From a virus, in IMG/VR virus record IMGVR_UViG_3300030012_003031, positions 20,269 to 43,947 of that record: 23,679 nucleotides of DNA. One strand, written 5' to 3'. A program made the position numbers and the translations under genes. Of the stretch, positions 10,208-23,569 are shown one piece after another. Numbering within the stretch: the stretch's first letter is position 1; each line of letters begins with the position of its first letter. Under the pieces are notes generated by a model. The model made no database searches. It worked only from the letters and a program-made list of their open reading frames with translations, and was not told where the DNA came from.

Positions 10208-10890
10208 TTGATTACGAGGGGCAATATCCAACAGGATCTGAGAGATATTTTGCCGATAAACATGATAGATTAAAGTGTAAGTTTCTTGGATCTGAGGACA
10301 TTATTGAAAATCATTCTCAGTCAATGCAAGATATGTTTGTTCTCTCTGTACTAAACGGAAAGAAAATAGGAACTTATGTTGAGATTGGAGCAGATCGCCC
10401 AAGGGTTATTAATAATACTTGGCTACTTGAATCGATGTATGATTGGGAGGGAGTTTCGTTTGAAATTGATCCCATAAAAGTAGATTACTTTAATACAATT
10501 AGACAAAACAAATGTATTTGTCAGGATGCCACTTCGTTCGATTATAAATCTCTTTTTGTAGAGAGAAATTACCCAAAGCAAATTGATTATTTGCAATTAG
10601 ATTGTGATCCTCCTCAGATTACTCTTGAGTGTTTGAAAAAGTTACCTCTTGATGATTATAGGTTTTCAATTATCACTTTTGAAACAGATTTGTATGCAGG
10701 AGGACATGCAGTTCAAAAAGAACAATGGGAAATTTTATGTAGTTTGGGGTATAAAAGAATTGCAAAAAATGTGAAAAATGAGGGTAACCCTTATGAGGAC
10801 TGGTGGATTGATCCATTAGTCATATCTGAAGACAGATATATGCCTTTTATGATCGATGATGTAGAATTTAGTAAAATTATTTTAGACTGA
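10204..10890 (+). CDS. FkbM-like SAM-dependent methyltransferase (putative)
   Basis: 228 residues. SQSMQDMFVLSVL (38-50) followed by GTYVEIGADRPRVINNTWLLE (56-76) and GVSFEIDP (83-90) matches the FkbM-family opening (SQ-GQD..., hEIGA-xP...SNT..LE, hxhExxP). IDYLQLDCDPPQITLECL fits its second acidic motif. FkbM proteins methylate sugar or lipid hydroxyls. Here the loop after EIGA is DRPRVINNT, so binding of SAM is not guaranteed. An in-frame TTG at 10198 would add two residues, but ATG 10204 gives the usual ATGA overlap with the preceding gene. The stop and next start share one base (TGATG). Confidence 0.7.
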   Translation: MIDYEGQYPTGSERYFADKHDRLKCKFLGSEDIIENHSQSMQDMFVLSVLNGKKIGTYVEIGADRPRVINNTWLLESMYDWEGVSFEIDPIKVDYFNTIRQNKCICQDATSFDYKSLFVERNYPKQIDYLQLDCDPPQITLECLKKLPLDDYRFSIITFETDLYAGGHAVQKEQWEILCSLGYKRIAKNVKNEGNPYEDWWIDPLVISEDRYMPFMIDDVEFSKIILD

Positions 10891-11747
10891 TGAAAGTTTT
10901 TGATTCGTTTATTTTCTTCAATGAACTTGAGTTGCTTGAGATGCGACTCAATATTCTAGGGGATGTTGTAGACAAGTTTGTTCTTACAGAGTCTCCATTT
11001 ACTGTCAGTGGTAATGAAAAACCACTGTATTATGAGGAAAATAAAGATAAATTTGCTAAGTGGCACGACAAAATCGTGCATAATATCACCGAAGAGATTC
11101 CAAATGACTTCTCTCATATGATGGAGAAGAGCAAATTTCACATTGGATACGGTGAACGTGATCCATATGGACAGCGTTTCATTGATTTACCCATCAGATT
11201 TCAACGTGCAGTGTATAATCGTAATGCAAGTTGCTTTGGTATTGAGAAGGCTGGTGCAGAGGATAGTGACATCGTGATGACTAGTGACGCTGATGAAATT
11301 ATCAATCCATATGTCTTAGAGGACACCTCTTGGTTCAATCCTGACAACCATTACGTCGCTGTTGGTAATGCTTATTACTACAAATTGAACTTCCTGTATC
11401 AAGATGACTGGATGGGAACACGTCTTTGCACTTGGAAACACCTCAAAGGCACCACAATTGATCAACATCGCCAAGATCACGTCAAAGCACACAAGATTGA
11501 AAACGCATCTTGGCACTTTAGTTTCTTAGGTAACGCTGAGAATTTCAAACTGAAACTTGCTTCCTATGAACATACAGAAAACAATACTGCTGCTAACATT
11601 GCTAATGCAGAAGAAAAAGTAGAGAAAGGACTTGATCCTTTGAATCGTGGTATGACTTACAGAGCAGTTCCCATTGACGAAAGTTACCCGGAATATATTC
11701 AAAACAACCAGGAGAAGTACGCAGAATTTATTAAACCATGGAATTAA
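10890..11747 (+). CDS. Glycosyltransferase family 17-like protein
   Basis: 285 residues. The opening MKVFDSFIFFNELELLEMRLNIL and VDKFVLTESPFTVSGNEKPLYY is typical of GT17 (beta-1,4-mannosyl-glycoprotein N-acetylglucosaminyltransferase group). Then IVMTSDADEI (128-137) holds the D133-x-D135 metal and donor site. The middle has several Trp and His residues (WKHLKG, WHFSFLG) seen in the family. In animals GT17 adds a bisecting GlcNAc; in phages and bacteria the acceptor is unknown. There is no signal peptide or membrane anchor, unlike the animal Golgi enzymes, so it would act in the cytoplasm. It overlaps the next gene by 10 bases. Confidence 0.82.
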   Translation: MKVFDSFIFFNELELLEMRLNILGDVVDKFVLTESPFTVSGNEKPLYYEENKDKFAKWHDKIVHNITEEIPNDFSHMMEKSKFHIGYGERDPYGQRFIDLPIRFQRAVYNRNASCFGIEKAGAEDSDIVMTSDADEIINPYVLEDTSWFNPDNHYVAVGNAYYYKLNFLYQDDWMGTRLCTWKHLKGTTIDQHRQDHVKAHKIENASWHFSFLGNAENFKLKLASYEHTENNTAANIANAEEKVEKGLDPLNRGMTYRAVPIDESYPEYIQNNQEKYAEFIKPWN

Positions 11748-12670
11748 TTGAAGGTGTAGCACTATCAGAACTCTGTGATTACTCGTTTGGCGATCAAGCG
11801 GGACAGTGGAGTGGTATCTACACACATTTTATGAAAGACGCTAACTTGACGAACACTGAGTTTGTCAACAAAGTATTTGAAATTAAGAAAAGCAGAGATT
11901 ATATGACTCTGTTTATTGATAATATCCGTTTATATAATAGAAAGATTGATGAGGTAAAACCCGAGGATTGGCCTGTTGTTAGAGCGATGATGCAGAAAAG
12001 TAATCTTCTTAGTCTGTGTAGTAACTTCATTGATATGAAGTTTATCATCTTCACAAATCTAGAGGATACACCACTTGATAAGCACATTTTAACTTGCTTA
12101 CCCAATAATGTTACTCGTGTTATCGCCGTAAATTCTGTCGTTGTAGGTAATAAAGTGATTCCTGCCCCTTATGGTGTGCAAAGAAGGATGAGTCCTAGCG
12201 ATGATAGAATTGAAGTCTTGAAATCATACATGGATAAGGACAATAAATTAAGTCCTAGATCATTTAGATTGTTATATGTTGGTGTGAATGAAAACTCACA
12301 TGAAGAAAGGAAGGGATTAACACAACAATTTATTAATGAACCTTGGGCAAGTGTAGAGACACAAAGGGTTGACTTTGAAACCTACCTTGATAGAATGTGG
12401 AGGTGTAAGTTTGTCTTGTGTCCAAGAGGAAACGCTATTGATTGTCACAGAAACTGGGAAACGATCTATATGCGTCGTGTTCCAGTGATGAAACGCACAC
12501 CCTTTTTGGAAGAATTGTATAAAGATTATCAAGTTCTTTTTGTAGATAACTATTCTGAGGTAACTGAACAACTGCTTATAGATAATAATCAGATGTTTTT
12601 GGATGCTCAAACGCAAGATTTATCCAAACTTGATCTTAACAACTTTTTTGAAACATGGAAAAAACCTTAG
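11738..12670 (+). CDS. Exostosin-like glycosyltransferase (GT47-type C-terminal motif)
   Basis: 310 residues. The diagnostic stretch is residues 224-255: KFVLCPRGNAIDCHRNWETI then RRVPVMKRTPF, the exostosin-domain pattern of K-F-x-L-x-P-R-G, D-x-x-R-x-WE, and P-V. It is preceded by RLLYVGVNENSHEERKGL, which resembles the strand and loop before it in such proteins. The N-terminal 160 residues are not recognisable, though IIFTNLEDT and a PYGVQRR turn look like part of a GT-B fold. Exostosin relatives add glucuronic acid, GlcNAc, galactose or other sugars, so the donor is open. The block encodes UDP-glucose dehydrogenase-family enzymes, making a uronic acid donor possible. It overlaps both neighbours (10 and 16 bases). 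Confidence 0.75.
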   Translation: MELIEGVALSELCDYSFGDQAGQWSGIYTHFMKDANLTNTEFVNKVFEIKKSRDYMTLFIDNIRLYNRKIDEVKPEDWPVVRAMMQKSNLLSLCSNFIDMKFIIFTNLEDTPLDKHILTCLPNNVTRVIAVNSVVVGNKVIPAPYGVQRRMSPSDDRIEVLKSYMDKDNKLSPRSFRLLYVGVNENSHEERKGLTQQFINEPWASVETQRVDFETYLDRMWRCKFVLCPRGNAIDCHRNWETIYMRRVPVMKRTPFLEELYKDYQVLFVDNYSEVTEQLLIDNNQMFLDAQTQDLSKLDLNNFFETWKKP

Positions 12671-13386
12671 TAGTCTCAAATTATAATTGGGATCTTGAAT
12701 GGTTGAAGATGACATATGATTATGGATTCTCTCCTCAAAATACTGTCATCTATGACAAAAGTGATGTTGATAAAGACTTGTCTCATCTTGGTGAAGTTAT
12801 TAAATCTCCTAATGTAGGTGCTAATCAATTTGATATACTTAGATTCATCATAGAAAACTATGAAAATCTCCCAGATATCAGTATTTTCATCAAAGGAAAT
12901 CTTTTTTCTAGAGGTGAAAACTATTACACGACGGAAGAAAAATTTGTAAAAGCTTTAAACTCTACAGAACTTTTTAGTATATGGGTTGATAAAAATGTAT
13001 TAGTTGGAGATTTAAGACATACCGATTATACTCCTCTTGAAACACTTAACAAAGGAAGATTAATTCAACCAGTGGCCTGGTGTAATTATGAGCACAATAG
13101 TGACTTAGAAAATAGACATTTTTGTAATCATCATGAGGTTCTTGATTGGTGTTTTGTAGATCCACCTAAAACTAATACCATTGAATTCATACCAGCATCA
13201 AATTTTGCAGTACCAAAAGAAGCAATCCTCAAATATTCCAAGGATGTGTATGAAAAAATGGTTAGTTGTTTGTTCTATGAGCCAGATTCTAGGTATGATC
13301 CAACTTGTGCAGAGGCTCACATGATTGAAAGAATGTTTTATTTGATTTGGAGTGAAGATTTAGTAGAAAAGATCACTAACGTATAA
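12655..13386 (+). CDS. DUF3431-like protein, putative glycosyltransferase-related
   Basis: 243 residues. TLVVSNYNWDLEWLK at the start, then SPNVGANQFDILRFIIENYENLPDISIFIKG (51-81), matches what I recall of DUF3431: a V-x-x-Y-x-D-x-x-W opening and a NVGxExxxxLxxIIxNYxxLPD-FxxG core. FIPASNFAVPKEAILKYSKD and AHMIERMFYLIW match its end. DUF3431 proteins are usually found with glycan genes and are treated as glycosyltransferase-like, but no reaction is established to my knowledge. It closes the first run of overlapping genes; the 35-base gap that follows holds a late-promoter motif. Confidence 0.68.
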   Translation: MEKTLVVSNYNWDLEWLKMTYDYGFSPQNTVIYDKSDVDKDLSHLGEVIKSPNVGANQFDILRFIIENYENLPDISIFIKGNLFSRGENYYTTEEKFVKALNSTELFSIWVDKNVLVGDLRHTDYTPLETLNKGRLIQPVAWCNYEHNSDLENRHFCNHHEVLDWCFVDPPKTNTIEFIPASNFAVPKEAILKYSKDVYEKMVSCLFYEPDSRYDPTCAEAHMIERMFYLIWSEDLVEKITNV

Positions 13387-13392
13387 TAAATA
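13385..13392 (+). promoter_or_regulatory. T4-type late promoter motif AATAAATA
   Basis: AATAAATA fits the NATAAATA form of the late -10 element in T4-like cyanophages. It lies 30 bases before ATG 13422, in the only real gap of the 18-kb gene block. The element would let the second half of the block be transcribed late, apart from the first. Confidence 0.6.
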
Positions 13393-13421: not shown

Positions 13422-14555
13422 ATGACTGCAGTGCCGTATAAGGGATCTCCAATCTTCAATGAAGACGGGACATTTAGAAAAGAAGATGATAAAGTTCAAG
13501 GAAGAAGTTACAGCAGTAATTTAACTAAGCTCCTTAAGCAATTACCAAAATTGCAGAATTTGCAGGAAGGCAAAAAAGCATCTCCTGTAATGGCACATAT
13601 TTCTCTTACAAATTCTTGTAATCTGACTTGTTCTTTTTGCTGTTTTGCAAACAGAGATATCTCAGAAAAAATGCCCACTGAAAAGGTATTTCAGGCACTT
13701 GAAAGTTTTAAAGCAATTGGTGTAACTGGTGTTGAATTTACTGGTGGTGGAGAACCAAGTATTCATCCAGACTTTAAAGCAATCGTACAATATGCTAAAG
13801 ATTTAGGATTTAGTCTTGGTATCTGTACAAATGGTGCTAGGTTTGGTGCTAATCGTGCAATTAAAAAAGATATTGTAGAACTATTTGACTGGGTTCGCTT
13901 AGGCATGTATGGTTTCTATGAGGGTTATGAATATGATTTAAGTGTATTTGAAGGAACTAACTGTAAGCCATCTGCTGCATATGTCTGGGATGAAAACCTT
14001 GAGACATCTAAAAATCCTAACATTACTGGTGAATGGAGTGATGTTAAGAACAAGCGTGTGCTTTCTAAAAAATTCCAGACTACCGAAAACTTTATTCGTA
14101 TGTTAGACTGGGTGGAGGAAAATCAGATTCCTTGTCGCATCGCATTCAATGCTATCAAAGATGTCAAAGAAACCGAAAAGGATATTGAAACTATCCGTGG
14201 TATCATCGAGGCATATGAAAAGGATCGCGGCAGAAAAATGAAGTCTGCATTTTTGTCTGACTTTAATTTTAAGGGTGAACGAAGAAATGATCATTGCTAT
14301 ATGCACATGGTAAAACCATTTTTGTTCACTGACGGATATGTTTACGCTTGTCCGTCCGCAGAGTTGTCTATTGAGAACAACTACAACTATGTTCCAGAAT
14401 CTCAATTTGCTGTATGTGACATTGATGGTATTGAAGATTTTTATAATCAAGGGCCAACTTTGAGACATCATGCTTGCCATTATTGCAAGTATGCTATGCA
14501 AAATGAACTAGTTGACGATATTCTTACTGATACTATTCACAATGATTTCGCTTGA
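13422..14555 (+). CDS. Radical SAM enzyme with SPASM-like C-terminus
   Basis: 377 residues. SLTNSCNLTCSFCCF carries the CxxxCxxC [4Fe-4S] triad (C66, C70, C73), and FTGGGEPSIHPDF (106-118) is the SAM-binding GGE-type motif. KPFLFTDGYVYACPSAE (298-314) and HHACHYCKY (349-357) form a SPASM-like tail, with C292, C310, C332, C352 and C355 available for an auxiliary cluster. Such enzymes modify peptides, or oxidise or epimerise sugars and other small molecules, by hydrogen abstraction. A 55-residue N-terminal arm and an insert near 165-215 are unassigned. In a glycan block I infer action on a sugar or nucleotide sugar, but this is open. It is the first gene after the internal late promoter; the next gene starts one base after its stop. 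Confidence 0.87.
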   Translation: MTAVPYKGSPIFNEDGTFRKEDDKVQGRSYSSNLTKLLKQLPKLQNLQEGKKASPVMAHISLTNSCNLTCSFCCFANRDISEKMPTEKVFQALESFKAIGVTGVEFTGGGEPSIHPDFKAIVQYAKDLGFSLGICTNGARFGANRAIKKDIVELFDWVRLGMYGFYEGYEYDLSVFEGTNCKPSAAYVWDENLETSKNPNITGEWSDVKNKRVLSKKFQTTENFIRMLDWVEENQIPCRIAFNAIKDVKETEKDIETIRGIIEAYEKDRGRKMKSAFLSDFNFKGERRNDHCYMHMVKPFLFTDGYVYACPSAELSIENNYNYVPESQFAVCDIDGIEDFYNQGPTLRHHACHYCKYAMQNELVDDILTDTIHNDFA

Positions 14556-14556
14556 T

Positions 14557-15156
14557 ATGCATCAATTCACCAAAGACTATTATGAGGATGGTGTAAGAAA
14601 ACATATTTCTGGGTATGAAGACTACAAATGGATGCCCACCCGTTCAATTCCTGAAGCACTTGATATTCAAAATCACTTTGAGTTTGATACCTGTGTTGAT
14701 TATGGATGTGCGAAAGGTTTCCTTGTAAATGCTCTTCGCATTGTTGGGTGCGATGCATGGGGTGAAGACATCAGTGAGTATGCTGTTGAGAATTGCCACC
14801 CTAATGTGAGAGATTATGTATCTCTTCCAAATGACAAAGTTTATGATCTTCTTATTTGTAAAGATGTTCTTGAGCATGTTGAGGTTGAGGATATTCCCTC
14901 TGTGCTTCAAAATTTTAAGAAGAAGTCAAATCAGTTTTTCTTTGTAATTCCTCTTGGAGACAATGATAGATTTAGGATTCGAGAGTATGAAGTAGACGTT
15001 ACTCATGTCACCAAGAAAGATGAAGAGTGGTGGATAAAAATGTTTGAGTCACAAGGTATGGAACTTGTGAAGTTTTCGTATTCTCTTGGATCAATTAAAG
15101 AAAAGTGGATTCAACCACATCCTCATGGTAACGGATTTTTTATTTTAAGAACTTGA
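14557..15156 (+). CDS. SAM-dependent class I methyltransferase
   Basis: 199 residues from ATG 14557: MHQFTKDYYEDGVRKHISGY. CVDYGCAKGFLVNAL (46-60) is motif I, GEDISEYAVENC (69-80) gives the ribose-binding acidic residue, YDLLICKDVLEHV (96-108) is motif II, and FFFVIPLGDN is motif III. This is the Methyltransf_11/23 layout often seen in sugar-modifying clusters. ATG 14542 is an in-frame alternative that adds five residues and overlaps the radical SAM gene by 14 bases; 14557 gives a TGA-T-ATG junction like the one before the next gene. No Shine-Dalgarno site decides it. The likely substrate is a sugar hydroxyl of the glycan, by context only. Confidence 0.83.
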   Translation: MHQFTKDYYEDGVRKHISGYEDYKWMPTRSIPEALDIQNHFEFDTCVDYGCAKGFLVNALRIVGCDAWGEDISEYAVENCHPNVRDYVSLPNDKVYDLLICKDVLEHVEVEDIPSVLQNFKKKSNQFFFVIPLGDNDRFRIREYEVDVTHVTKKDEEWWIKMFESQGMELVKFSYSLGSIKEKWIQPHPHGNGFFILRT

Positions 15157-15157
15157 T

Positions 15158-16048
15158 ATGTTAGCGACTGAATTTTTGCATGGACAGGGACTTGGAAATC
15201 AATTATTTGCATACGTAACAACTAGAGTTTTAGCTCGTAGATTAGGTTATGACTTTGGTATCAAAGGACTTCAGAGTGCAGGTGACTCCAGAGTAAATAA
15301 AAAGGGATTCTACTTTATAAACCTTGACTATGGTAAGGAAGTTCCTGATAATCTTGAAAGATATGACGAATATCGACATGCTCTTAAAACAGACGAATGG
15401 TTACGTACTGATATCCGCTTGACTGATAAAAATTTGTTATCTATCCCGGATAATCATATAATTTATGGTAATTTTCAGTCTGAAGATTACTTCTATGATG
15501 AGATTGATATTGTTAAAGATTGGTTGAGAATTCGTATTATGTACGAACACGACGAAACAAATGGAAAAAACATTTGTGTTCTTAATTTTCGTGGTGGAGA
15601 TATGATTGGTAATGCTGGAGCCTTTGTTCCTGCATCATATTGGCATAATGCGATGCAGCATATGTCAGAATATAACCCTAACATGGAGTATTGCATTGTT
15701 ACCGATGATGTTCAAACTGCTAATAGGATGCTCCCTGACATCCCTGCATATCATGTTGACGTGGCATGGGATTATGTCGCTATCAAGAATGCAAGGAACG
15801 TTATATGTACTACCTCCACCTTCTCCTGCTTCCCTCTCTGGACATCCGACAAATTAGAGATGTGCATTGCACCTAAGTATTGGTTCCATCATAATTTGTC
15901 TCAAGGATGGTGGAGTCTGGGATGCAGTATTTACAGTTATCCAACATATTATATGGATAGAGATGGCAAACTCTTTACACCAGACGAATGTAGGGTAGAA
16001 TGGGAAGAGTATAAGAAGACTTCAAACATTTATGATGGGGACTTATGA
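15158..16048 (+). CDS. Divergent GT11 glycosyltransferase (alpha-1,2-fucosyltransferase family)
   Basis: 296 residues. HGQGLGNQLFAYVTTRVLARRLG (8-30) is the GT11 opening, IIYGNFQSEDYF (101-112) matches its G-x-FQSExYF strand, and CVLNFRGGDMI (140-150) stands for the HxRRGD motif, with Asn (143) replacing His and Gly replacing the second Arg. CTTSTFSCFPLW occupies the place of NSTFSWWGAWL, with the second Trp conserved. The C-terminal 60 residues are longer than usual. GT11 transfers L-fucose from GDP-fucose; no GDP-fucose genes are visible, but a GDP-L-galactose maker is. The altered motif may mean a different donor. Start and stop junctions are tight (1-base gap, ATGA overlap). Confidence 0.78.
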   Translation: MLATEFLHGQGLGNQLFAYVTTRVLARRLGYDFGIKGLQSAGDSRVNKKGFYFINLDYGKEVPDNLERYDEYRHALKTDEWLRTDIRLTDKNLLSIPDNHIIYGNFQSEDYFYDEIDIVKDWLRIRIMYEHDETNGKNICVLNFRGGDMIGNAGAFVPASYWHNAMQHMSEYNPNMEYCIVTDDVQTANRMLPDIPAYHVDVAWDYVAIKNARNVICTTSTFSCFPLWTSDKLEMCIAPKYWFHHNLSQGWWSLGCSIYSYPTYYMDRDGKLFTPDECRVEWEEYKKTSNIYDGDL

Positions 16049-16755
16049 TGCCTAAAATTAATCTACCAGATGTCACATTGATATCTGTAGACACTACTGA
16101 TGATCTTTTAGGCACTCTTAAGGGTGTCTATACTAGTATGTCCGGCATCAATTATGGTGCTGTCAAATTAATCACTACACAAGAGCAGATTGACAAGAAT
16201 CCTCACCTTGTAGAAGAAGGTATAACGATGGAAACTCCTGTTCGTGATATCAAAAATTATGTTGACTATAATTATTACGTAATTTATCACCTGCACGAAC
16301 ACGTAGACACTTCACATTGTCTTTTGGTTCAACCAGATGGTTTTGTGTTGTTCCCTGATAAATGGGATGATGAATGGTTAAAGTATGATTATATTGGAGC
16401 ACCTTGGGCATATGTAGAAGACGCATACATTGATCCATTTGGAAGACACTGGCGTGTTGGTAACGGTGGATTTTCACTGAGGAGTAAAGCTTTCTTAGAA
16501 GTTCCCACTAAGGTTGAAGTTCCTTGGGAAACAAACAATAGTGACTTCTACTGGATGCCAGAAGGTGTGGTAAACTATCATGAGGACGGAAACGTCTGTG
16601 TTCACAATCGACATATCTTCCAATATCAGGGTATGCAGTATGCACCCGTAGATGTTGCTGTCAGGTTCTCACAGGAAACCAGAGTTCCTGAATCAGAAGG
16701 TATCATACCTTTTGGTTTTCACTATAGACTGCCCCCTGGAGTTGAATTAGGATGA
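16045..16755 (+). CDS. DUF5672-type putative glycosyltransferase
   Basis: 236 residues. HCLLVQPDGFVLFPDKWDDEWLKYDYIGAPW (91-121) and WRVGNGGFSLRSKAFLE (136-152) are the signature of DUF5672 as I recall it: VIQxDGFV, YDYIGAPW and GNGGFSLRS. VAVRFSQETRV and PFGFHYRLP close the domain. The GNGGFSLRS loop is shared with GT-A glycosyltransferases, where it shapes the acceptor site. The N-terminal 70 residues are a Rossmann-like beginning (DVTLISVDTTD). ATG 16045 or 16048 could be used; the first overlaps the preceding stop. The donor is unknown. Confidence 0.77.
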   Translation: MMPKINLPDVTLISVDTTDDLLGTLKGVYTSMSGINYGAVKLITTQEQIDKNPHLVEEGITMETPVRDIKNYVDYNYYVIYHLHEHVDTSHCLLVQPDGFVLFPDKWDDEWLKYDYIGAPWAYVEDAYIDPFGRHWRVGNGGFSLRSKAFLEVPTKVEVPWETNNSDFYWMPEGVVNYHEDGNVCVHNRHIFQYQGMQYAPVDVAVRFSQETRVPESEGIIPFGFHYRLPPGVELG

Positions 16756-17546
16756 TTGGTATTATTGGAAATGGTTTTGTTGGTAATGCAGTTTACCAAA
16801 ACTTTAGAGACAAAGTATCTACAAAGGTATATGATGTAGATAAAAATAGAAGTCTTAATACTTTAGACGAAGTTATTAATCAGGACTTTGTATTTGTATG
16901 TCTTCCAACTCCCATGACATCTGATGGCAGTTGTGACATATCAATTCTAGATGAATTTTTTAGTACACTACCCAAGATTGATAATGAAGAAACTATTTTT
17001 GTTATTAAATCAACAGTGCCTGTAGGCACAACCAAGAGACTTGCTTTAAATCATAGAGTTATTCATAATCCAGAGTTTCTTACTGCAAGAAATGCAGTAA
17101 ATGATTTTGTAAATTCTGATAGAAATATTATTGGTGGTGAGAGAGAACTTGCTGAAAAATTTGGAGAAATGTTTTTTCTTAACTTTCGCAATATACCAAG
17201 TATGATTGTATCTTCGGATGAGAGTGAGGCAATTAAATATTTTTCTAATACTTTTCTTGCTTACAAAGTGGCATATTTTAATAAAATGTATGACTTCTGT
17301 CAAAGTTTTGAACTTGATTATGCTAATGTTGCAAGAGGTGTCTCTGCCGATCATCGCATTGGAACATCTCACACTAAAGTTCCGGGTATAGATAGTGATC
17401 GTGGATTTGGTGGAACTTGTTTTCCGAAAGATCTCAACTCTTTGATTGTTCAGATGGAGAGTGCTGGAATAAATGCTGACATGCTTAAAGAAGTATGGAA
17501 GTATAATGAACAGATAAGAACTTGTATTGATTGGATAGTAACATGA
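16752..17546 (+). CDS. Short UDP-glucose/GDP-mannose dehydrogenase-family protein lacking the C-terminal domain
   Basis: 264 residues; family members usually have 390-450. GNGFVG (6-11) binds NAD. FVCLPTPMTSDGSCD (48-62), KSTVPVGTT (86-94), NPEFLTARNA (106-115), EAIKYFSNTFLAYKVAYFN (159-177) and GFGGTCFPKD (218-227, catalytic C223) follow in the normal order. The catalytic half is complete, but the C-terminal UDP-binding domain is gone: the protein stops about 40 residues after the catalytic Cys, and the next gene starts within its stop (ATGA), so no frameshift is hiding the rest. It could oxidise a smaller or different sugar, pair with another subunit, or be a regulator. A second, longer family member is encoded at 21579. 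Confidence 0.85.
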   Translation: MIGIIGNGFVGNAVYQNFRDKVSTKVYDVDKNRSLNTLDEVINQDFVFVCLPTPMTSDGSCDISILDEFFSTLPKIDNEETIFVIKSTVPVGTTKRLALNHRVIHNPEFLTARNAVNDFVNSDRNIIGGERELAEKFGEMFFLNFRNIPSMIVSSDESEAIKYFSNTFLAYKVAYFNKMYDFCQSFELDYANVARGVSADHRIGTSHTKVPGIDSDRGFGGTCFPKDLNSLIVQMESAGINADMLKEVWKYNEQIRTCIDWIVT

Positions 17547-18358
17547 TAGGACATAATCATATCGGTAAGAACGGAAGGTTTGGTAACCAGATGTTTCAGT
17601 ATGCAGCAACCAGGGGTATTGCACATAATCAAGAGGTTGACTACATCATTCCTGATGGCCCTAAGACAGATGAAGAGTTTAATGATGAGGAGAATCAACA
17701 TAAACTCTTTATGGCATTCAATATGACTGGTGCTAAGAACATTGGATTGTTAGAAGCACCCTATCGTAAAGAAGCAACTTTTAGATTTGATAGTGAGTTA
17801 TTTGAAAACTGTGATGACAACTTAAATCTCTATGGTTACTTTCAATCAGAGGAGTATTTTGCTCACATAGAAGATGAGATCCGTGAAGACTTCACATTTA
17901 AACCAGAGGTTCAAAAACTGTGCAAAGAAATTTGGAAAGAGATTGTAACTGATGAAGGACACACCGAAGCAATTGCCCTCCATGTACGACGCACTGATCA
18001 CCTCATCAAACCAACTTTCCATCCAGTCCTCCCCATCTCCTACTATGAAGAGGCACTTAGGAGACTGCCTAAAGACATCCCTGTCTTTGTATTCACGGAT
18101 GATCCATCGTGGGCGTTCGGACACTCATTCTTTGAATCTGATCGTTTCTTTATCTCTGAGAGTGACAACGTACACGATATGTGCCTCATGTCAATGTGTA
18201 ACTACAACATCATCGCAAACTCAACCTTTTCTTGGTGGGGAGCATGGCTAGCAGGACATGATAATGTGATTGGCCCTAAACTCTGGTTTGGCCCTGATGG
18301 TGAGGATCCTACAGACATTTACATCGATCGTTGGGAGTATCTTGATGTCGCAAATTAG
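17543..18358 (+). CDS. GT11 glycosyltransferase (alpha-1,2-fucosyltransferase family)
   Basis: 271 residues. GRFGNQMFQYAATRGIA (11-27), NLYGYFQSEEYF (95-106), IALHVRRTDH (144-153), and NSTFSWWGAWLA (226-237) followed by IGPKLWFG are the complete GT11 set. In the HxRRGD motif the Gly is Thr (T151), which is unusual in a loop that holds the GDP phosphates. ATG 17543 is chosen for its ATGA overlap with the preceding stop; a TTG four codons earlier is less likely. The donor would be GDP-L-fucose in known enzymes; GDP-L-galactose is possible here. The 3' end overlaps the next gene by 14 bases. Confidence 0.9.
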   Translation: MIGHNHIGKNGRFGNQMFQYAATRGIAHNQEVDYIIPDGPKTDEEFNDEENQHKLFMAFNMTGAKNIGLLEAPYRKEATFRFDSELFENCDDNLNLYGYFQSEEYFAHIEDEIREDFTFKPEVQKLCKEIWKEIVTDEGHTEAIALHVRRTDHLIKPTFHPVLPISYYEEALRRLPKDIPVFVFTDDPSWAFGHSFFESDRFFISESDNVHDMCLMSMCNYNIIANSTFSWWGAWLAGHDNVIGPKLWFGPDGEDPTDIYIDRWEYLDVAN

Positions 18359-19103
18359 TATTTGTATTCCCACTTATGAATATAAGGGTAGGGGAGTTGA
18401 GTTTTTAGCAGAGTTATTTGATTCTATTGAACGTCAAACTTTTATTGACTTTGATATTGTTATCTCTGATCATAGTAAAGATGATGTCATTGAACAGTGG
18501 TGTCGTCACTGTCATTATGACTTTGAGATTACATACATTAGAAATCCAAATGGACGTGGTTTTCAGGCACCAAATACAGACTGTGCCATAGAAAATGCTG
18601 AGGGTGAAATCATTAAACTGATCTATCAGGATGATGTATTTGTGGATGAGAATGCATTGCAAAAAATCTATGATTCTTTTGAAAGTGGTGCCAAGTGGTT
18701 GATTCATGGATTCACTCACACCAAAGATGGTGTTGAAACCCATCGAAACTGTGCTCCAAAGTGGAGTTCTAGAATGCTTGAAGGTGATAATTTACTTGGA
18801 AGTCCATCATGCACTGCATATTTAAATGGAGCATATTTGGGTATGGATGATGAGATGAAACTTCTAATTGATACTGAATTGTATCATCGTATGAGAATGA
18901 AACATGGTATGCCTCTAATGTTGGATGATATTCTCATCGCAAATCGAGAGCATGATGCTAGAATGAGTTCGGGTGGTGTTAATTATGATGCTACGATTTC
19001 AGATTCATCAAGAACTTGGTTGGTAAATAAAGCAGAAATAGATCACATCTATAAGAAACACTCAGAATTTTTTGTGACAAGAAAGTATCCCGATGAAAAC
19101 TGA
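18345..19103 (+). CDS. Glycosyltransferase family 2
   Basis: 252 residues from ATG 18345. ISICIPTYEYKGRGVEFLAELFDSI (4-28) is the classic GT2 opening, DFDIVISDHSKDD (35-47) gives the first acidic site, NPNGRGFQAPNTDCAIENAEGEIIKLIYQDDVF (67-99) leads to the metal-binding acidic motif (QDD for DxD), and MLDDILIANREHD is in the acceptor region. Retained GT-A features suggest an active inverting enzyme. The frame is open upstream to 18270, but that part lies inside the GT11 gene. No membrane helices are present, so it is a soluble cytoplasmic enzyme and not an initiating or processive type. It overlaps both neighbours (14 and 11 bases). Confidence 0.87.
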   Translation: MSQISICIPTYEYKGRGVEFLAELFDSIERQTFIDFDIVISDHSKDDVIEQWCRHCHYDFEITYIRNPNGRGFQAPNTDCAIENAEGEIIKLIYQDDVFVDENALQKIYDSFESGAKWLIHGFTHTKDGVETHRNCAPKWSSRMLEGDNLLGSPSCTAYLNGAYLGMDDEMKLLIDTELYHRMRMKHGMPLMLDDILIANREHDARMSSGGVNYDATISDSSRTWLVNKAEIDHIYKKHSEFFVTRKYPDEN

Positions 19104-19905: not shown

Positions 19906-20746
19906 TCAACTTGGAAACCTAGGTAGACTAGGTAATCAGATGTTTGAGTATGCCGCTCTGCGTGGTATTGCTACTAAACATAATTATGAATGGTGTATTC
20001 CTCCATTTAATGCTCAAAGTATTGAGAACTATAGTCTTCACTATTGTTTTAAAATGGAGGATGTTAAGAAACAAAATCTTCAACATAGAAATCTCGGATT
20101 TGTTCAGGAAAGGTTCTTTCACTTTGATGAACATCTAGTAGAGAAGTGTCCTGATAATGTCAGTCTTAATGGATTTTTTCAATCTGAAAAATACTTTAAG
20201 AATGTAGAAGACATCATACGTAGCGAGTATACTTTTCATGATGAACATCTTGAACCCTGTAAAAAAGTTATGGAGGAGTTCAAAGAACAAGAACCTATTA
20301 TGCTCCATGTTCGACGAGGTGATCCTAATCTAACTGATCCCCGTGGATTTAAGTGGGCATACACTCAGTGTTCTTCTATGCATCCACCTCAAACCATTGA
20401 TTATTATGAGAGAGCTCTTGCTGAATTTGATGATAATCAACCCGTGTTTGTATTCTCTGATTCTGTTGATTGGGTAAAGGAACAGGAGTTTTTCTCTGGA
20501 GATAGATTTTTAATTTCTGAACCTGTTGATAAATATCCCGATGGTTCTTTTACACCATATGCTGATTTGTGCTTGATGTCTTTATGTTCTCATGCTATCA
20601 TTGCTAATAGTAGTATGAGTTGGTGGGGAGCCTGGTTACAGACAAACCCCAATAAAAAAATTATTGCTCCGAAGAATTGGTTCGGGCCTGCATATGCAGA
20701 TAAAGATACTGCTGATCTATACTGTCCTGATTGGATTGTTCTATGA
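19892..20746 (+). CDS. GT11 glycosyltransferase (alpha-1,2-fucosyltransferase family), canonical motifs
   Basis: 284 residues. GRLGNQMFEYAALRGIA (11-27), LNGFFQSEKYF (92-102), IMLHVRRGDPN (136-146, intact HxRRGD), and NSSMSWWGAWL (239-249) followed by IIAPKNWFG. This is the most canonical GT11 of the window. GT11 enzymes are inverting GT-B types that move L-fucose from GDP-L-fucose to the O2 of galactose or similar. No GDP-fucose synthesis is encoded in the window, so the donor would come from the host or be GDP-L-galactose from the first enzyme of the block. The start lies 14 bases inside the preceding gene; ATGA links it to the NAD synthetase gene. Confidence 0.93.
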   Translation: MLAFNQLGNLGRLGNQMFEYAALRGIATKHNYEWCIPPFNAQSIENYSLHYCFKMEDVKKQNLQHRNLGFVQERFFHFDEHLVEKCPDNVSLNGFFQSEKYFKNVEDIIRSEYTFHDEHLEPCKKVMEEFKEQEPIMLHVRRGDPNLTDPRGFKWAYTQCSSMHPPQTIDYYERALAEFDDNQPVFVFSDSVDWVKEQEFFSGDRFLISEPVDKYPDGSFTPYADLCLMSLCSHAIIANSSMSWWGAWLQTNPNKKIIAPKNWFGPAYADKDTADLYCPDWIVL

Positions 20747-21582
20747 ACAGAATTAATGATTATACTGAACTGGAAACTAGGATTATCTCCTGGATTCGTG
20801 AATATGCTGATAATAATTTTATCAAAGCACTAGTTGTTGGTGTTTCTGGTGGTATTGATTCAGCTGTAGTCTCTACCCTTTGTGCTAAGACTGGCATTCC
20901 AACCTTTGTGTTAACAATGCCTCTTACATCTAAACTGGATAACACTATTCTTTCTACCGCACATGCGACATATCTTAATGATAACTATGATAATGTTGTA
21001 ACGCAAAATGTTGAACTCTCTAGCACCTATAATCAACTATTGAAATCAATTGATTGGTGGACAGATATTAACGGTGGTGAAAAGGGAACTTATACTTCTA
21101 ATAGTCTTGCTAATGCAAATACAAAATCAAGACTTCGTATGGTAACTTTGTATCAAGTAGCAGGCACTGTTGGTGGTATTGTTGTAGGAACTGGTAATAA
21201 AGTAGAAGATTATGGTATCGGGTTCTACACTAAATATGGTGATGGCGGTGTGGACATTGCACCTATCGCTGATCTGTACAAAACAGAAGTATGGGAACTT
21301 GGTAGACACCTAGGTGTCGATCAGCGTATCATTGATGCTGCTCCTACAGATGGATTGTGGGAAGATAGTAGAACTGATGAAGCGCAGGTAGGTGCATCCT
21401 ATGAGGATCTGGAATGGGTGATGGAGAGTGATATCTTCAGAAACGCAAATCATCCAGAATCTGCAGTTATGTGGAGAGGACAATCACTGACTGAATCACA
21501 GCGAAACGCTATTAAACAGTATGGAAAGTTTCACCGTCAGAACAAGCATAAAATGATCTCTATTCCTACATTCAAACTATGA
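20743..21582 (+). CDS. nadE: NAD(+) synthetase, NH3-dependent type
   Basis: 279 residues from ATG 20743. Amidates nicotinic acid adenine dinucleotide to NAD with ATP. GVSGGIDSAVV (33-43) is the ATP-pyrophosphatase loop. ANTKSRLRM (125-133) leads to GIVVGTGNKVEDYGIGFYTKYGDGGVDIAPIADLYKTEV (145-183), which is the NadE signature (GTxNKxE, then TKYGDGGVDI-PIADLxKTxV). The length suits the single-domain form without a glutaminase part. The sequence is specific enough to separate it from the amidotransferases of sugar pathways that share the first loop. Placed between a GT11 gene and a UDP-glucose dehydrogenase-family gene with ATGA overlaps on both sides, it may keep NAD up for the dehydrogenases (two NAD per sugar) and epimerases. 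Confidence 0.9.
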   Translation: MNRINDYTELETRIISWIREYADNNFIKALVVGVSGGIDSAVVSTLCAKTGIPTFVLTMPLTSKLDNTILSTAHATYLNDNYDNVVTQNVELSSTYNQLLKSIDWWTDINGGEKGTYTSNSLANANTKSRLRMVTLYQVAGTVGGIVVGTGNKVEDYGIGFYTKYGDGGVDIAPIADLYKTEVWELGRHLGVDQRIIDAAPTDGLWEDSRTDEAQVGASYEDLEWVMESDIFRNANHPESAVMWRGQSLTESQRNAIKQYGKFHRQNKHKMISIPTFKL

Positions 21583-22715
21583 AAATTGGTGTAATTGGTG
21601 CGGGGCGACTTGGGATTTGCTTCGCACTTCTTTGTGAACAAGCAGGGTATGATGTATTAGTCTCTGATATTCGCGAAGATTACGTCGCGGATCTTATGGA
21701 AAAGAAGATCAAGACTAATGAACCTGATGTTCAAGAATTCCTGAGTCGTTCAATTAATTTCTCAGCCACAACTAGTAACGAAAAAGTAATTCAAGAGTGT
21801 GACATCATTTACACTCTGGTAGCAACTCCTTCTCTACCCAGTGGTGACTATGATGTCTCTGCTGTATGGAGAGTTGTTGATGATATTGTAGAGTCTGGTG
21901 TTCAAGGAAAGTCTTTCGTAGTCGGATGCACTACGAATCCTGGCGATTGTGAGATGTTCCAAGACAGGCTCACAAAGCACGGTTGGGAAACTTTCTATAA
22001 CCCAGAATTTATTGCTCAAGGATCTATCATCAAAGATCTCCAGAACGCTGATATGGTTCTGATCGGTGGCAAGTGGGGTAAGACTTTTAATAAGTTGTCA
22101 GAACTTTATCATAAGATCCAAGTGACTAAACCTCAGATCAGTCTGATGTCTAGAACCGCCTCAGAGGTGGTTAAAATCGCCACTAACTGCTTCCTTACGA
22201 CTAAGATTAGTTATGCCAACATGATGGGGCAGGTGCTTGCTCTAGACGGCATGGAAGACGAGATTGATACCGTACTGGATGCCATCGGTGCAGACAGTCG
22301 AGTTGGTAAAAAGTATCTAAAGTTTGGTTATGGATTTGGTGGGCCTTGTCTCCCTAGAGATAATCGTGCTTTTGCTGCTTATGCTAAGAGTCTTGGTGTT
22401 GAGTATAATTTAGGTGCTACAACTGATAGTTTTAATGAAGTACATAACAAATTCTTGCTTGACTATGTGATTACTAAAAACCACACCAGTCTTCCATTCT
22501 ACTTTGATTATGTTTCCTACAAGAAAGGAACTGATATTTTGACTGAGAGTCAACAATTTAAACTTTGTAAGGCACTTCTTGATGAGGGTTATACTGTTTA
22601 CATTAATGACAACGAAACTATTTTAAATCGTGTGAGAGATACACTTTATGATCAATACTATGATAGAGTGAGGTTTGGAGAACCCAAAGAAAAAGTATAC
22701 AAAGTTGATATCTGA
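21579..22715 (+). CDS. UDP-glucose/GDP-mannose 6-dehydrogenase family protein
   Basis: 378 residues. GAGRLG (7-12) binds NAD, VATPSLPSGDYD (81-92) replaces the usual (T/S)P(P/T) loop, NPEFIAQGSIIKDL (141-154) holds the catalytic Glu, SEVVKIATNCFLTTKISYANMMGQV (195-219) the Lys/Asn helix, and YGFGGPCLPRDNRAF (251-265) the nucleophile C257. A shortened C-terminal domain is present: SYKKGTDILTESQQFKLCKALLDEG (313-337) is the YKxxTDDxRESxx...L...G pattern. It would oxidise a nucleotide hexose to its uronic acid with two NAD. VGCTTNPG replaces the common STVxPG, a possible sign of altered substrate. ATGA links it to nadE, and TGATG to the last gene. Confidence 0.88.
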   Translation: MKIGVIGAGRLGICFALLCEQAGYDVLVSDIREDYVADLMEKKIKTNEPDVQEFLSRSINFSATTSNEKVIQECDIIYTLVATPSLPSGDYDVSAVWRVVDDIVESGVQGKSFVVGCTTNPGDCEMFQDRLTKHGWETFYNPEFIAQGSIIKDLQNADMVLIGGKWGKTFNKLSELYHKIQVTKPQISLMSRTASEVVKIATNCFLTTKISYANMMGQVLALDGMEDEIDTVLDAIGADSRVGKKYLKFGYGFGGPCLPRDNRAFAAYAKSLGVEYNLGATTDSFNEVHNKFLLDYVITKNHTSLPFYFDYVSYKKGTDILTESQQFKLCKALLDEGYTVYINDNETILNRVRDTLYDQYYDRVRFGEPKEKVYKVDI

Positions 22716-23539: not shown

Positions 23540-23569
23540 CAAAAGATTAAAAAAAGGTTAGTATAAATA
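23536..23569 (+). promoter_or_regulatory. Overlapping sigma70-like and T4-late-type promoters
   Basis: TTGACA (23536-23541) is a perfect -35; 17 bases on stands TAGTAT (23559-23564; 4 of 6 to TATAAT). A perfect T4-type late element TATAAATA lies at 23562-23569. The two would serve early and late transcription of the gene starting at 23671. Confidence 0.65.

Follow-up and report, generated by a model that had tools for sequence, protein, structure and literature searches.

The locus lies in a 23,679-nucleotide stretch of DNA (the window; positions 20,269 to 43,947 of IMG/VR record IMGVR_UViG_3300030012_003031, a virus record of 43,947 bases), and the source virus is a cyanomyovirus infecting marine cyanobacteria. 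By megablast, the window aligned with phages of Synechococcus and Prochlorococcus, chiefly across the nrdA/nrdB region. On the + strand at 13422..14555 it carries a gene for a Twitch-type radical SAM enzyme of 377 residues (rSAM), as predicted from its cysteine pattern, whose protein matches the Pfam family Radical_SAM (PF04055, 3.6e-13) above the Pfam cut-off. Both core motifs read in the first-pass annotation are in place (CNLTCSFCC and TGGGEP): its CxxxCxxC is C66-X3-C70-X2-C73, followed by a further invariant cysteine, C74 (codons 66-74, 13617..13643, +; 76 of 76 distinct members), and its GGGEP is residues 108-112. The five later cysteines that it described are C292, C310, C332, C352, and C355. 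Across 76 distinct relatives, down to 38% identity, C66, C70, C73, C74, C292, C310, C352, and C355 are invariant; C332, kept in 62 of the 76, is not. The gene is under strong purifying selection, with a dN/dS of 0.04 between the window and Synechococcus phage SynMITS9220M01, a comparison in which synonymous sites are close to saturation. From these motifs we predict a radical SAM protein in which C66, C70, and C73 would bind a [4Fe-4S] cluster and support SAM cleavage.

The later cysteines determine the subclass. The SPASM motif has seven cysteines, arranged CX9-15GX4C-gap-CX2CX5CX3C-gap-C, and Twitch is a shortened SPASM with the cysteines for one auxiliary cluster, CX9-15GX4C-gap-CX2C (PMC6231123). 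The corresponding region of rSAM reads C292-X12-G305-X4-C310 ... C352-X2-C355 (codons 292-355, 14295..14486, +). Spacing throughout the family is exactly CX9-15GX4C..CX2C, with the four cysteines in 76 of 76 distinct members and G305 in 75. C292, C310, C352, and C355 thus take SPASM positions one to four; the remaining three are missing, and none of the 76 members has a cysteine beyond position 355. Because just four of the seven cysteines are found, we reject a SPASM assignment and correct the original description of the enzyme as SPASM-like. On this pattern, rSAM belongs to the Twitch subclass with a single predicted auxiliary cluster, like BtrN.

We compared the predicted structure with those of characterised radical SAM enzymes. 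The AlphaFold model (pTM 0.80) is a partial TIM-barrel with low-confidence stretches at residues 1-10 and 18-31 and in the cluster loops (67-72 and 75-79), and radical SAM structures match it at Z 10-17 over most of residues 39-371 (DesII 16.8, SkfB 16.3, PqqE 15.8, BlsE 15.0, MoaA 14.8, BtrN 12.9, SpeY 10.2). With so many radical SAM families in this range, we rejected assigning a reaction from the fold, and because the best structural neighbors mix chemistries (DesII, RiPP maturases, MoaA, the decarboxylase BlsE), the fold does not select oxidation. At the level of a predicted model, the comparison confirms the radical SAM class without choosing a reaction. A characterised subfamily was likewise rejected by sequence, since scores against the named NCBIfam radical SAM equivalogs (MoaA, PqqE, NirJ, viperin, AhbC/D, W_rSAM_matur) fall far under cut-off (best 53.4 versus 380 bits), and the best-scoring sequence matches in NCBIfam, PHROG, and PDB are limited to the radical SAM core. 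The Pfam, NCBIfam, PHROG, and PDB comparisons therefore uphold the earlier view of a radical SAM enzyme without a close characterised homologue.

Three Twitch enzymes are among the closest known counterparts. BtrN (2-deoxy-scyllo-inosamine dehydrogenase, PDB 4m7t) shares the CX3CX2C core with rSAM and aligns with an rmsd of 3.6 over 204 residues, and its Twitch domain holds one auxiliary cluster on four cysteines, to which four in the phage protein correspond; however, BtrN is a butirosin biosynthesis enzyme that is 12% identical to rSAM, without a detectable sequence relation. SpeY (PDB 7wzv), a Twitch radical SAM dehydrogenase that acts in an antibiotic pathway, matches by sequence in the core only and differs from rSAM in being 14% identical. 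SkfB (PDB 6efn), a Twitch radical SAM sactisynthase, aligns with an rmsd of 4.0 over 262 residues and also matches the core by sequence. The auxiliary cluster of BtrN is ligated by four cysteines, and those of BtrN, PqqE, and SuiB are thought to be electron acceptors in two-electron oxidation (PMC9012708). SkfB has four conserved cysteines, one of them non-ligating (PMC6231123). The four invariant cysteines of rSAM fit full ligation of the BtrN/SpeY type and equal in number those conserved in SkfB; because the conserved cysteines of SkfB do not all ligate, we treat full four-cysteine ligation in the phage enzyme as a prediction.

We searched for relatives of rSAM in phage, plasmid, and genome sequences. 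Among 50,697 annotated phage records there is one, gene 210 of SynMITS9220M01 (QJT70216.1), labelled hypothetical; it is 88% identical and is followed by the same methyltransferase and by a glycosyltransferase, but its upstream sugar genes differ from those of the window (heptose kinase, isomerase, epimerase). In IMG/VR, 39 loci match the single rSAM sequence, and searching with the rSAM profile gave at least 348 candidate stretches confirmed by tblastn, 80 of which were taken into the locus reading. Identity within the family is 38-97%, the most divergent members found being L158 (45%) and L155 (38%). A plasmid search returned zero matches. Scanning genome contigs with the single rSAM protein returned one match, a 9.5 kb phage-type contig (L042, DKPS01000090.1) with phage-type sugar genes and a 94% identical rSAM, binned with a Saprospiraceae MAG; this is probably phage contamination of the bin. 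Judged by these sequence searches, rSAM is a member of a predicted, as yet unnamed phage family.

The family has a constant partner. Directly after rSAM, as the first-pass annotation had noted, lies a class I SAM-dependent methyltransferase gene, MT2 (14557..15156, +), whose ATG at 14557 or 14542 (the mechanical ORF runs from 14512) abuts or overlaps the rSAM stop codon. The protein matches PF13489 (7.8e-11), and its AlphaFold model (pTM 0.87) has a Rossmann fold matching class I methyltransferases at Z 14-17. We rejected assigning a function to MT2 from this fold, which is generic among such enzymes and does not indicate the acceptor. All 114 loci that extend at least 300 nt past the rSAM gene have MT2 after it; they represent 71 distinct sequences, a count given because some loci occur twice under two ids; in a few loci one other gene lies between the two. 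The association is reciprocal: with MT2 as bait, rSAM was upstream in 78 of 80 loci, and the other two start at a contig end. In L155, the most divergent member, the pair sits in a very different phage, accompanied by two glycosyltransferase-like genes but no SDR gene. Because most other neighbors vary, we regard the rSAM–MT2 pair as the conserved unit and glycan genes as its usual setting.

That setting is a phage sugar cluster, as originally proposed, with glycosyltransferases both in the window and around the pair in diverse phages. Directly upstream of rSAM lies a glycosyltransferase-like DUF3431 protein (12655..13386, +; PF11913, 1e-9), a family also found upstream of rSAM in other loci, and further upstream a family 17 glycosyltransferase (10890..11747, +; PF04724, 2e-24). 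Downstream of MT2, all on the + strand, are a protein that clusters with GT11 (fucosyltransferase-like) proteins at 17531 and 19892 and is without a Pfam match of its own (15158..16048), a DUF5672 protein (16045..16755; PF18922, 6.9e-18), a family 11 glycosyltransferase (17531..18358; PF01531, 5.5e-24), and a family 2 glycosyltransferase (18270..19103; PF00535, 6.3e-13). The window neighbors include three SDR epimerase/dehydratases, glycosyltransferases of families 17, 11, 2, and 25, UDP-sugar dehydrogenases, a Methyltransf_24 protein, glycosyltransferase-like DUF proteins, and, within the sugar cluster, an NAD synthase (20731-21582). One UDP-glucose/GDP-mannose dehydrogenase-like ORF (16752-17546) matches the N-terminal profile only from position 71 and looks N-terminally shortened; a longer copy is at 21579-22715.

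Across loci the neighbors change, drawing on DUF3431, DUF707-like, GT17, GT11, GT2, GT25, GT8, Methyltransf_24, and carbamoyltransferase genes, and glycosyltransferase-type genes stand beside the pair in unrelated phage backgrounds. The first-pass annotation suggested that rSAM may make a deoxy, oxidised, or epimerised sugar beyond the reach of the SDR enzymes. SDR genes are not constant companions of the pair: in many loci it occurs with glycosyltransferases and without an SDR nearby. An hhalign comparison among the upstream gene families (DUF3431, a 231-aa family, and DUF707-like) found no relation, and we rejected a common ancestry of these glycosyltransferase-like genes. In a cyanophage subgroup, a carbamoyltransferase gene of the NodU/CmcH type lies close upstream of the pair (L006 3725-5296 and relatives) and is an additional sugar decoration gene. 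Directly 3' of the cassette in many loci is a gene whose product of ~800 aa combines a cytidylyltransferase-like part and a zeta-toxin/P-loop kinase-like part (L082 10346-12772).

Two further claims concerned the sequence immediately around rSAM. A T4-type late-promoter-like motif, ATAAATA, lies upstream of the gene at 13386-13392 (+), and its position has support, as the motif recurs 26-43 nt before rSAM in window-type loci with a 30-55 nt gap; its number does not, with four occurrences in the window against 7.4 expected, which is not above chance. All four sites (2934-2940, 13386-13392, 20529-20535, and 23563-23569) are on the + strand, three of them at intergenic gaps. The second claim, that no small precursor-peptide gene adjoins rSAM, holds: the flanking gaps are at most 70 nt in all loci with the exception of one contig, which is present under two ids (L002 and L043).

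We also searched for cellular relatives by whole-genome profile searches of 395 genomes from one phylum, Bacteroidota. Apart from the phage contig, which was recovered here too, distant rSAM relatives scoring 79-85 bits (profile positions about 13-146) occur in seven of these genomes, with weaker core matches elsewhere, and a separate search with the MT2 profile had best chromosomal matches of 50-58 bits, some of them on contigs that the rSAM search had also hit (G153, G260). Both relationships are distant (the rSAM core scores ~85 bits and MT2 46-58 bits), and the Bacteroidota MT2-like protein carries the GY..Y.WMP.R-type segment of the MT2 family before its SAM motif. In five genomes (L212, L213, L214, L223, L224) the rSAM relative and the MT2-like gene lie 2-4 kb apart, separated by a HAD-kinase and a transketolase subunit. 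L214 additionally has a PfkB-cytidylyltransferase, a nucleotidyltransferase, an NDP-sugar C-methyltransferase (Methyltransf_13/23/14), a DegT aminotransferase, and an SDR. The shared cluster comprises two radical SAM genes, a split transketolase, a HAD-APH kinase, and the MT2-like gene, and in these five regions it matches no pathway that we recognised as described. The tie between the two genes is looser in cells, because L221 and L222 have the MT2-like gene and transketolase without a strong rSAM relative and L225 has an MT2 match with neither.

Taken with the reciprocal MT2 pairing and the glycosyltransferase neighbors in diverse phages, the occurrence of cellular relatives of both proteins in a nucleotide-sugar cluster leads us to assign a sugar as the substrate of rSAM, which we consider probable. 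The 2-4 kb co-location in that cluster and the absence of room for a precursor gene make a sugar or surface-glycan substrate well supported, and the constant methyltransferase partner in a sugar-gene setting implies that the pair probably remodels a sugar of the host surface coat. As to chemistry, our best explanation, held tentatively and at somewhat less than an even chance, is that rSAM and MT2 form a two-step unit acting on a host surface-glycan sugar or its nucleotide-activated precursor, with a BtrN/SpeY-like oxidation followed by methylation. The C66/C70/C73 cluster would cleave SAM, and the resulting 5'-deoxyadenosyl radical would abstract hydrogen from one carbon of the sugar. An electron would then pass to the auxiliary cluster (C292, C310, C352, C355), leaving a keto sugar by analogy with BtrN and SpeY; we regard this step as possible rather than probable. 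In the order that we propose, MT2 would methylate the rSAM product after the radical step, and the changed glycan might modify the surface of the infected cell, for instance to hinder superinfection.

In the same glycan setting, rSAM could instead be a radical epimerase that takes a hydrogen, inverts the carbon, and has a cysteine return a hydrogen, so that MT2 would methylate the inverted sugar. Structural matches include the radical SAM epimerase EpeE (Z 12), and the extra C74, invariant in 76 of 76 members and common to the Bacteroidota relative (CNHNCWYCCY), is a candidate for the returning cysteine. However, C74 abuts the cluster, unlike the donor cysteine of known radical epimerases, which sits across the substrate, and the alternative donor C238 is threonine in 22 of the 76; we consider epimerization unlikely. 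A redox-neutral lyase acting on a nucleotide sugar by dehydration, deamination, or decarboxylation, like DesII (PDB 8hzy) or the cytosylglucuronate decarboxylase BlsE (PDB 7vob), would yield a deoxy or shortened sugar, and both of these enzymes act on nucleotide-linked sugars. DesII is the top structural match (tied with SkfB), BlsE is sixth and also has a sequence match to the core, and the UDP-sugar dehydrogenases of the window could supply uronic acids. Yet the DesII and BlsE rows have low TM-scores (0.32-0.50, rmsd 8-11) and do not stand apart from those of the Twitch/SPASM oxidases, identities of 10-14% make the reaction not transferable, and the dehydrogenases do not accompany the pair consistently; like the epimerase, a lyase is an unlikely but serious alternative.

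Twitch and SPASM enzymes are frequently RiPP maturases, and SkfB, PqqE, and SuiB rank high among the structural matches, so we considered modification of a peptide or protein of phage or host, possibly encoded elsewhere. Against this reading, the one contig excepted, there is no space for a precursor gene beside rSAM; no domain match to a peptide recognition element (RRE) was found, the N-terminal 31 residues being mostly low-confidence in the model; and the partner genes are glycosyltransferases and methyltransferases. We judge a maturase improbable. A nucleotide- or cofactor-modifying enzyme (viperin-, MoaA-, or QueE-like) unconnected with sugars is very improbable: models of MoaA and viperin do agree with the core sequence and the fold, but rSAM scores far under their NCBIfam cut-offs (MoaA 48 versus 325 bits, viperin 46 versus 180), its four invariant cysteines differ from the open, three-cysteine auxiliary site of the redox-neutral MoaA (PMC9012708), and cofactor-pathway genes are absent beside it.

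Similar gene settings have been described. Radical SAM gene cassettes were reported in passing for pelagimyophages and T4-like marine genomes (PMC7029224, PMC5332604), and those of pelagimyophages lie in a glycosyltransferase-rich host-recognition region resembling the window; the likeness is by description, as these genes were neither characterised nor classified there. Cluster VII of Campylobacter jejuni HS:19 contains radical SAM and methyltransferase genes assigned to methylation and capsule biosynthesis (PMC8743553). There, as in the Bacteroidota clusters, a radical SAM gene is near a methyltransferase and glycan genes as in the phage, although the C. jejuni likeness is from description alone and the Bacteroidota relatives are distant from the phage proteins. 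We found no description of the rSAM–MT2 pair in the open-licence papers searched. Ordinary as an enzyme class, rSAM thus appears undescribed as part of a strictly linked two-gene phage module.

The inseparable pair and its nucleotide-sugar cousins point to a specific, testable claim, namely a radical sugar reaction followed by methylation. Phages are known to carry genes that alter host surface sugars, and most of the familiar examples encode glycosyltransferases, acetylases, or short-chain dehydrogenases. A Twitch radical SAM enzyme with a dedicated methyltransferase may form a new glycan-modifying module by which many aquatic phages equip the host surface with a radical-made, methylated sugar, a proposal that we hold as less likely than not. 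If true, it would represent phage-encoded sugar chemistry without a characterised counterpart, run in an infected, oxygen-producing host, and would mean that an oxygen-sensitive enzyme class is strongly selected in viruses of oxygen-evolving cyanobacteria.
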